Source: an uncultured Pseudanabaenaceae cyanobacterium (GTDB lineage Bacteria; Cyanobacteriota; Cyanobacteriia; Pseudanabaenales; Pseudanabaenaceae). Taken from it: a DNA stretch of 64,000 nt. Position 1 is the first letter of the stretch; every line of letters begins with the position of its first letter. Below, piece after piece: positions 5,517 through 7,513 of the stretch. A model generated the notes under the pieces. It worked only from the letters and a program-made list of their open reading frames with translations. It was not told the DNA's origin and ran no database searches. Location: the NCBI GenBank assembly GCA_937927915.1, contig CALGKB010000005.1:62001-126000 (forward strand), in the 5' to 3' direction. Both the position numbers and the translations under genes were made by a program.

Positions 5517-5599
5517 GAACACTAAGAATATATGCCTAGAGATAGCCAAAATATGTTAAGTAAAGTTTCTAAGTCGTAAGTGGGGCATTCAGGTTATCC

Positions 5600-5605
5600 T
5601 ATAAT
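5600..5605 (+). promoter_or_regulatory. Candidate -10 element upstream of sulfite reductase
   Basis: A perfect TATAAT lies 24 bases before the chosen ATG of the sulfite reductase gene. No good -35 hexamer is visible 16-18 bases upstream, so expression may depend on an activator. The leader would be only about 15-20 bases long. Confidence 0.45.
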
Positions 5606-5629
5606 TTCCTAATAATTTTGGCAAAGGAT

Positions 5630-7513
5630 ATGACGGATACGGTAAGACGCTCACGGGAAGAAGGGATCAAAGAACGGAGTCAGTTCCTCAAGGGGACATT
5701 GCCCATGGAAGTCAATGAACCTACCCCTGCCTTCAGCCGCGATGCGATGCAGATTCTTAAATTCCACGGTACTTACCAACAGCGGGACAGGGACCACAAG
5801 GGAGATGCCCCTTACTCCATGATGCTGCGAACCCGTACTCCTGCTGGGGTGGTTGCCCCTGAGCTGTATCTTACCCTCGATACCCTTGCCGATCGGTTTG
5901 CCAACGGCACGCTGCGGGTGACGGACAGACAGGGTTTTCAATTACATGGGGTACTGAAATCTGACCTCAAAACTGTTATTCGGGAAATTGTCCACCACAT
6001 GGGGTCAACTTTGGGTGCCTGTGGCGATGTCAACCGCAATGTCATGTGCCCGCCGCCTCCGTTCAAAAATGCTGCTGCCTACAACTATGCCCGTACCTAT
6101 GCCCGCAATATTGCTGACCTCCTGCGTCCCCAGACCTCTAGTTATTATGAAATCTGGTTAGACGGAGAAAAATTTGTCACGGCGGAAGCGCCGGAGGTCA
6201 CAGCTGCCCGCAATCAGCCCGGCAGGGGCAGGGTCAACACCAATATCCCTGACTGCCCGGAGCCAATCTACGGTGTCCATTACATGCCCCGCAAATTTAA
6301 GACTGCCTTGACGGTGCCAGGGGATAACTCTGTGGATTTGTTCACCAATGATTTGGGCTTGGTGGTGATTGTGGATGAGCAAGACCAACTACGGGGTTTC
6401 AATGTTTATGTGGGAGGGGGACTGGGACGTACCCACCGTGACGAACAAACGATCGTGCGCCTAGCAGACGGCATTGGCTTTGTCCCCGCCGATCGGGTCT
6501 ATGAAGTGGTGAAGGCAGTAGTAGCATTGCAGCGGGATCACGGGGACCGGCTCAACCGCAAACACGCCCGCTTGAAGTATTTGTTACATGACTGGGGGGT
6601 GGAGAAATTCAAACAAGTGCTCAAGGATTACTACCCCGATGACCTGGAACCCCTGGTGGAGCTGCCCCCCTTTACCTATCAGGATTACCTGGGTTGGCAT
6701 GAACAGGGGGATGGCAACAAGTTTTTGGGGATTGCTATTGAGAATGGCAGAATCGCCGATCGCAACGGCTGGCAGTTGAAAACAGCACTGCGGGAGATTA
6801 CGGAGCGCTTCCAGTTGACCATGCATTTGACTCCCCAGCAAAATGTCCTGTTGTGTGACGTTAGCCCTGATATTGAGCGGGAAGTGCAGCGTATCTTGAC
6901 CGAGCGGGGGGTGTTGATGCCAGAGGCGATTGATCCGATCGTGCGTCAGAGTATGGCTTGCCCGGCTTTACCGACCTGTGGTTTAGCGGTGACGGAGTCG
7001 GAACGGGTGTTGCCCAGTGTGCTGCGGCGCATTCGCGCTTTACTGGAAAAACTCAATCTGGGGCAGGAAAGTTTTGTGGTCAGGATGACGGGTTGTCCCA
7101 ATGGCTGTGCTCGCCCCTACATGGCGGAGTTGGGCTTTGTCGGCAGTGGGATCGGGGAGTACCAGGTATGGCTGGGGGGGACTCTCAACAGCACCAGGTT
7201 GGCGGAGCCATTTATCGATCGGATGCCCCTGGACAAATTAGAAGCCACCTTAGAGCCACTGTTTGTCTGTTTCCGCGAGGAACGGCAGCCAGGGGAGCTA
7301 TTTGGGGATTTCTGCGCCCGCAAGGGGATTGCCTACCTGCAGGAGTTTGCCCAGCACTATGTGCCCCCCAAGACCAAGGATATGCGCCATCGCGTTACTC
7401 TTTCTCCCCCGGTCTACGAACGCCTCAAGGAAGCTGCCCGCACCACCAACCGATCGATGAAGGAGCTGGTGGAAGCTGCCCTCAAGGAATACCTGAGCAA
7501 GCTCACTAATTAA
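5630..7513 (+). CDS. sir: Ferredoxin-sulfite reductase with a C-terminal ribbon-helix-helix-like tail
   Basis: The enzyme reduces sulfite to sulfide with six electrons from ferredoxin, using siroheme and a [4Fe-4S] cluster. With the ATG at 5630 the protein has 627 residues; a TTG at 5618 would add four. Cluster cysteines are C444 and C450 (CPALPTC) and C489 and C493 (CPNGC). The siroheme-domain motifs RQGFQLHGV and GACGDVNRN are present. After about residue 584 the fold is complete, and a further 43 residues (MRHRVTLSPPVYERLKEA, then KELVEAALKEYL) look like a CopG/Arc-type ribbon-helix-helix. Nothing adjacent belongs to sulfate assimilation; a DUF39 gene lies at 20-21 kb. Confidence 0.94.
   Translation: MTDTVRRSREEGIKERSQFLKGTLPMEVNEPTPAFSRDAMQILKFHGTYQQRDRDHKGDAPYSMMLRTRTPAGVVAPELYLTLDTLADRFANGTLRVTDRQGFQLHGVLKSDLKTVIREIVHHMGSTLGACGDVNRNVMCPPPPFKNAAAYNYARTYARNIADLLRPQTSSYYEIWLDGEKFVTAEAPEVTAARNQPGRGRVNTNIPDCPEPIYGVHYMPRKFKTALTVPGDNSVDLFTNDLGLVVIVDEQDQLRGFNVYVGGGLGRTHRDEQTIVRLADGIGFVPADRVYEVVKAVVALQRDHGDRLNRKHARLKYLLHDWGVEKFKQVLKDYYPDDLEPLVELPPFTYQDYLGWHEQGDGNKFLGIAIENGRIADRNGWQLKTALREITERFQLTMHLTPQQNVLLCDVSPDIEREVQRILTERGVLMPEAIDPIVRQSMACPALPTCGLAVTESERVLPSVLRRIRALLEKLNLGQESFVVRMTGCPNGCARPYMAELGFVGSGIGEYQVWLGGTLNSTRLAEPFIDRMPLDKLEATLEPLFVCFREERQPGELFGDFCARKGIAYLQEFAQHYVPPKTKDMRHRVTLSPPVYERLKEAARTTNRSMKELVEAALKEYLSKLTN

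Follow-up and report, generated by a model that had tools for sequence, protein, structure and literature searches.

Why would sulfite reductase, a textbook house-keeping enzyme, end in a domain of the DNA-binding type? The question is raised by the sir gene of the window, i.e. the whole 64,000-nucleotide stretch of DNA from an uncultured Pseudanabaenaceae cyanobacterium that was analysed here, and the domain is conserved in nearly all cyanobacterial families examined. Based on profile matches, structure predictions and comparisons across the phylum, we propose that the tail is probably a true ribbon-helix-helix (RHH) domain fused to an assimilatory sulfite reductase, where it would pair the enzyme and attach it to DNA in a PutA-like manner. 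Such a conserved module of the DNA-grip type suggests a second job, so far unstudied, for a core metabolic enzyme, and with it a further level of control, likewise unstudied, linking photosynthetic electrons, sulfur and transcription. Both the RHH domain as such and its fusion to enzymes, as in PutA, are already known (PMC5293562, in the portion available); new is the occurrence on sulfite reductase, as a variant of these fusions. A literature search, with subscription journals mostly outside its scope, returned no paper combining 'sulfite reductase' and 'ribbon-helix-helix', and searches of the literature by locus tag and C-terminal extension returned no RHH domain on sulfite reductase, although an earlier database annotation may exist.

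Reductase core and linker

The sir frame of the window occupies positions 5618-7513 of the forward strand as a single uninterrupted open reading frame of 631 amino acids, starting at a TTG, with an ATG at 5630. Residues 1-580, counted from the TTG at 5618 (5618-7357, forward strand), form the siroheme/4Fe-4S core of a ferredoxin-dependent sulfite reductase. TIGR02042, the profile of this enzyme, covers residues 4-581 with 866.9 bits, above the equivalog cut-off of 731.5, the alignment to maize sulfite reductase spans residues 4-580, and the best solved fold for the full-length model is again the maize enzyme (5h92/5h8v, 50% identity in the structural alignment). The gene is single-copy in the window's genome. 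Five other genomes of the class (G048, G058, G080, G083 and G211) hold just distant nitrite-reductase-like matches, without a clear assimilatory sulfite reductase of this type.

The core is followed by a linker, residues 581-588 (7358-7381, forward strand), whose length differs widely among relatives. Lengths are unequal in 33 of 63 pairs, the C-terminal domain lies 97 to 352 residues from the GCxNGC motif, and the linker itself can be very short or reach about 250 residues. The longest, in L164 (genome G320, family f11), has a high content of Thr, Pro, Ser and Gln and contains repeated TVEPTIPSTSGQQEGQ-like units. In the full-length model of the window's enzyme, residues 587-590 have a pLDDT below 50. 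The ten residues ahead of the domain are basic, with a mean net charge of +1.96 in 117 genomes versus -0.03 in random core stretches.

A conserved C-terminal domain

An earlier note, made from the letters of the window, had described a tail of about 43 residues beyond the siroheme fold; this is borne out, the quoted residues being identical in the translation and the frame open throughout. The domain comprises residues 589-631 (7382-7510, forward strand), and the CopG/Arc-type beta-helix-helix pattern that the note had read into it is backed, as the probable fold, by a Pfam profile, structure prediction and conservation. Pfam RHH_1 matches residues 593-626 of the full protein at 24.8 bits, where the gathering score is 20.5, and the isolated 43-residue tail reaches 30.5 bits (E 3.2e-7); hence, the match is beyond chance. 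A Pfam scan of 57 aligned named tails at E ≤0.01 gave RHH_5 in 25, RHH_1 in 13, 56B_RHH in 12 and ParG in 12.

The putative ribbon strand, R590-H-R592-V-T-L595 (7385-7402, forward strand), would direct V593 and L595 inward and R590, R592 and T594 outward, as judged from residue alternation and the alignment to CopG and PutA. Helix A (residues 597-610; 7406-7447) and helix B (residues 614-630; 7457-7507), both on the forward strand, follow in the full-length model as well as in the tail model. In all 197 tailed loci of the combined set described below, the domain aligns to a profile of 37 positions. The outward-facing arginine at 592 (codon 7391-7393, forward strand) is invariant in 197/197 loci and in 158/158 distinct tails, while its strand neighbour 594 varies; positions 593 and 595 each hold V, I or L in 197/197, and position 590 is R in 142/197. 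Conserved helix columns include L (186/197) and K (185/197) in helix A, and A (193/197) and Y (192/197) in helix B.

The tail is under purifying selection, with a pN/pS of 0.27 compared to 0.18 for the core in 63 disjoint pairs. The linker was discarded as a neutral yardstick, as its pN/pS of 0.21, obtained from equal-length linkers only (30/63 pairs), gives no contrast with the tail. We also considered a small separate gene or antitoxin 3' of sir. None of the 197 tailed loci has a break in the frame, and only 6 of them carry a Met near the point where the domain begins; the tail is therefore not a separate gene.

In the window's genome the tail is the sole RHH_1 match above cut-off; a weak second RHH match lies at G000:C7:69229-69357. 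Similar weak matches in genomes of families f18 and f26 (L254, L256, L258-L260, L262 and L263) come from short conserved proteins that contain KVTLYLSPELH and end in a Cys-rich, zinc-ribbon-like part.

Predicted fold

Prediction of the tail's structure, proposed as a check in the earlier note, yielded helices and, in monomer models, top fold matches that are all RHH. The tail model was built on an alignment of 57 tails and the full-length model on 40 sequences. The former shows an extended stretch and helices at 23-36 and 40-56, with a mean pLDDT of 82 and a pTM of 0.47. DSSP assigns no strand; both models are monomers, and since the ribbon forms in the dimer alone it is absent from them.

The fold reading is based on the top Foldseek rows, all of which are RHH, with PutA first (2gpe, probability 1.00, E 0.11), followed by AmrZ and CopG. 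Probabilities for these three are 0.93-1.00, yet the E-values are 0.1 or worse, and no PDB chain matches the tail model at E ≤0.001 in Foldseek. In VIA-align, three PutA entries lead with Z 5.8-5.9, one of which (2rbf) shows the domain bound to operator DNA; Z is 5 or more for 34 of 170 chains. For a 43-residue fold on its own, a Z below 8 and an E no better than 0.1 are weak values. Sequence comparisons point the same way: solved chains searched with the window's tail give PutA, AvtR and CopG as nearest, in a weak but consistent manner, and the 57-tail profile recovers AvtR, ORF56, PutA, E73, ParG, 56B and others at E 0.0003 to 0.01, along with one odd row (8fje). R590, R592 and T594 align with residues 4, 6 and 8 of CopG and 5, 7 and 9 of PutA, the positions that contact DNA in those two proteins.

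Relation to known RHH proteins and proposed mechanism

Repressors of the CopG/Arc/NikR/AmrZ type share the strand-helix-helix pattern, the polar or basic outward strand residues and the fold matches with the tail. They differ in that they either act alone as regulators or carry ligand-binding parts, and are not known to be fused to an assimilatory reductase. The trifunctional PutA of E. coli and Pseudomonas is closer, likewise a metabolic redox enzyme with a fused RHH domain, which is the best solved fold for the tail and among its best sequence matches. However, PutA has the RHH domain at the N-terminus (PMC5293562, available portion). It is also a flavoenzyme with a proven operator and switch, whereas the window's protein is a siroheme enzyme with the domain at the C-terminus and a predicted DNA role. 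The RHH-enzyme fusion is present but the core is that of TIGR02042, not of proline dehydrogenase, so the protein is PutA-like in its presumed working without being a member of that family. TrcR of Anabaena is a cyanobacterial RHH repressor kept in many cyanobacteria, autoregulated and with a conserved promoter element; it differs in that the accessible text of PMC10272220 describes no enzyme fusion, and in that its element, ATACTACACTTGTATTAC, is unlike that of sir.

We propose that the enzyme operates as follows. Two tails would pair via their strands, turning the enzyme into a dimer, and the resulting two-stranded ribbon would sit in the DNA major groove with R590, R592 and T594 facing outward, while the flexible basic linker would leave the catalytic domains hanging free. 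Sulfite reductase would then be an enzyme with a DNA-binding module, working like PutA. DNA binding by the tail is likely; such contact might regulate transcription or place the enzyme on the nucleoid.

As a counterpoint, RHH domains can also serve mainly to pair proteins or to hold a partner. In the available portion of PMC5293562, fusion of the PutA RHH domain to a monomeric PutA yields a dimer, and the tail might thus do no more than pair the enzyme. That the tail only pairs the enzyme or holds a protein partner, with no nucleic acid contact, is nevertheless quite unlikely, as pairing needs the inward residues only and leaves the outward arginine, invariant in 197/197 loci, and the basic arm without explanation.

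Distribution and origin of the tail

The spread of the tail among cyanobacterial sulfite reductases, a further check named in the earlier note, turned out wider than could be seen from one sequence. Of 386 genomes of the phylum that were searched, 200 had matches, and 150 of these (one per genome, among the matches listed) were used; tails were detected with a profile grown from that of the window, and the lowest-scoring tailed locus reaches 44.9 bits. Among the matches listed, the tail is present in 117/150 genomes. All 26 examined genomes of family f20 lack it, and outside this family it occurs in 117/124, the exceptions being 1/41 in f7, 2/3 in f15, 2/2 in f18 and 2/2 in f26. Given these seven genomes and the 26 examined from f20, again among the matches listed, neither catalysis nor growth depends on the tail in general. 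In a second search 80/80 named loci were tailed, in a sample biased toward the query; the combined set holds 197 tailed of 230 loci, with some genomes counted twice. Named carriers include Nostoc, Anabaena, Calothrix, Microcystis, Thermosynechococcus, Leptolyngbya, Symploca and Lyngbya. The tail is absent from 5/5 enzymes of f38, an outgroup from another class.

A tree of 86 cores, made by a quick method with SH-aLRT support only, was rooted on f38. The tail-less f26 and f18 rows branch first, and the clade of the remaining 77 rows has a support of 97. Presence and absence of the tail take four changes on this tree, where f20, L184 and the L194/L200 pair read as losses. This suggests one gain and three losses, the gain having occurred inside the cyanobacteria after two basal tail-less lineages split off, on a tree in which the deepest forks are open and the f20 branch is long. 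No tail remnants were seen 3' of the stop in the tail-less L184, L194, L200, L201 and L203 (three frames, about 400 bases, by eye). One locus of f18, L253 (G427:C160), has a tailed enzyme, unlike the two tail-less relatives in that family. Its core lies inside the tailed clade with distant families, on a long branch, and hence a transfer or a mis-binned contig is possible.

The earlier note had drawn a parallel to plastid sulfite reductase, which may hold at the level of function but does not extend to homology. The plant plastid enzyme is reported to bind and compact DNA (PMC4154389; PMC2923531, available portions of both), and the nucleoid protein DCP68 is a plastid sulfite reductase, of the same enzyme family, for which the accessible part of PMC4154389 describes both activities. 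However, the maize chain in the PDB has 583 residues, of which the match reaches no further than residue 575, so that the C-terminal architecture differs from that of the tailed enzyme, and any DNA binding by DCP68 would use other parts. The maize chain ends without the tail, and the module is therefore not shared inheritance with the plant enzyme. Descent of the tail from an ancestral DNA-binding part common to the plastid enzyme could draw on the shared enzyme family and a maize core that is 50% identical in the structural alignment, but it is contradicted for maize, and the tail was apparently gained after basal tail-less lineages had split off; we regard it as highly improbable. DNA binding in plastids and any binding in cyanobacteria would thus have come about by different means, and the long-standing puzzle of plastid sulfite reductase on DNA becomes open to comparison.

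The sir promoter element

If the tail contacts DNA, the sir promoter is a candidate site. Across cyanobacteria, sir is preceded, mostly at 40-130 bp, by a highly conserved element, TCATAATTCCGACCGGATTACCGGGAAT, in which 8 bp separate two CCGG cores (L019, L020, L026, L035, L201, L202 and others); tail-less genes have it too. In one locus, L003, both cores are changed together (TGGG-N4-TGGG). The tail might read this element, in the form TTCCGACCGGATTACCGGGAA with the same core spacing, and the enzyme could repress or tune its own gene as PutA does, a reading that we hold as a tentative possibility. The element scores above the 99% null in 143/197 tailed loci, most often 90-119 bp ahead of the start. 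The presence of the element shares more than 0.5 bit with five of 37 tail columns, which belong to the strand, the stretch directly after it, the loop and the beginning of helix B, versus 0/540 core columns. Tail columns are more variable than the core (mean entropy 1.67 versus 0.81), and 19 ordinary clades taken from the core tree therefore served as a comparison. In those, the core tracks the split about equally well as the tail, or better, and the tail-to-core ratio for the five best columns is at most 1.11 compared to 1.47 for the element. At tail position 1, Q or E co-occurs with the element in 0/40 loci and R in 132/142, although other residues at this position (H, G, A, S, K and P) do so in 11 loci.

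Other observations oppose autoregulation. The element stands upstream of 7/7 tail-less sir genes outside f20, which argues that it is older than the tail and is read by something else. Scores are 33.6 to 40.3 bits in the three recent tail losses and 27.2 and 31.6 in the basal f26; those of L203 and L204 are barely above the threshold of 4.84, at 5.3 and 9.1. The element is missing in 54/197 tailed loci, the window's own among them (5517-5617), the clade with Q or E has no strong replacement element of its own, and a tree-corrected test, with just 5 independent contrasts, gives significance at 0/4 positions (median p 0.25 to 1). As tail-less genes keep the element and the tree-corrected test is non-significant, we do not accept it as a clear operator of the tail; autoregulation by the tail is live but unproven.

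The same covariation bears on looser binding. The tail could hold the enzyme on the nucleoid with little sequence preference, convergent with plastid sulfite reductase, for which the available portion of PMC4154389 describes binding and compaction of plastid DNA. The basic arm and the R-rich strand would fit such a mode, but the outward face varies in step with the promoter element. RHH domains are usually sequence-specific, which also speaks against it, and we consider the idea possible but doubtful.

Our preferred reading, a PutA-like RHH domain that would pair the enzyme and attach it to DNA, can be extended to a scenario that we judge unlikely in its full form. In most cyanobacteria, sulfite reductase would be a trigger enzyme of the PutA kind, paired by its tails and bound to the sir promoter and to a small number of further sites, with the redox state of siroheme or ferredoxin, or bound sulfite, setting its residence and tying sulfur assimilation and photosynthetic electron supply to transcription. 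The clade without the CCGG element would have a reading surface rebuilt for another sequence.

Genome-wide, an 18-base pattern of the element (at most one mismatch) has matches in 37/145 genomes, at no fewer than 43 places. A reversed control pattern gives about 44 places, and hence these numbers alone mean nothing. Where the place of sir is known in a pattern-matching genome (14 genomes), the site is beside sir in 11 and only elsewhere in 3 (G005, G008 and G296). As a second reader of the element, a stand-alone RHH protein was considered; most f26/f18 genomes searched hold weak RHH matches, but G185 and G289 have none yet keep the element, and the candidate was rejected. In the clade with Q or E, no replacement element is common to all members. 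A GCGATCGC palindrome lies just 5' of a -10-like box in several of them, but GCGATCGC is common in cyanobacteria as a repeated word. In the window (5545-5605) and its nearest relative, L031, a shared block, GTTAAGTAAAGTTTC..TAAGT..GTAAGTGGGGCAT, lies 5' of a TATAAT-like box upstream of sir, where the CCGG element would stand.
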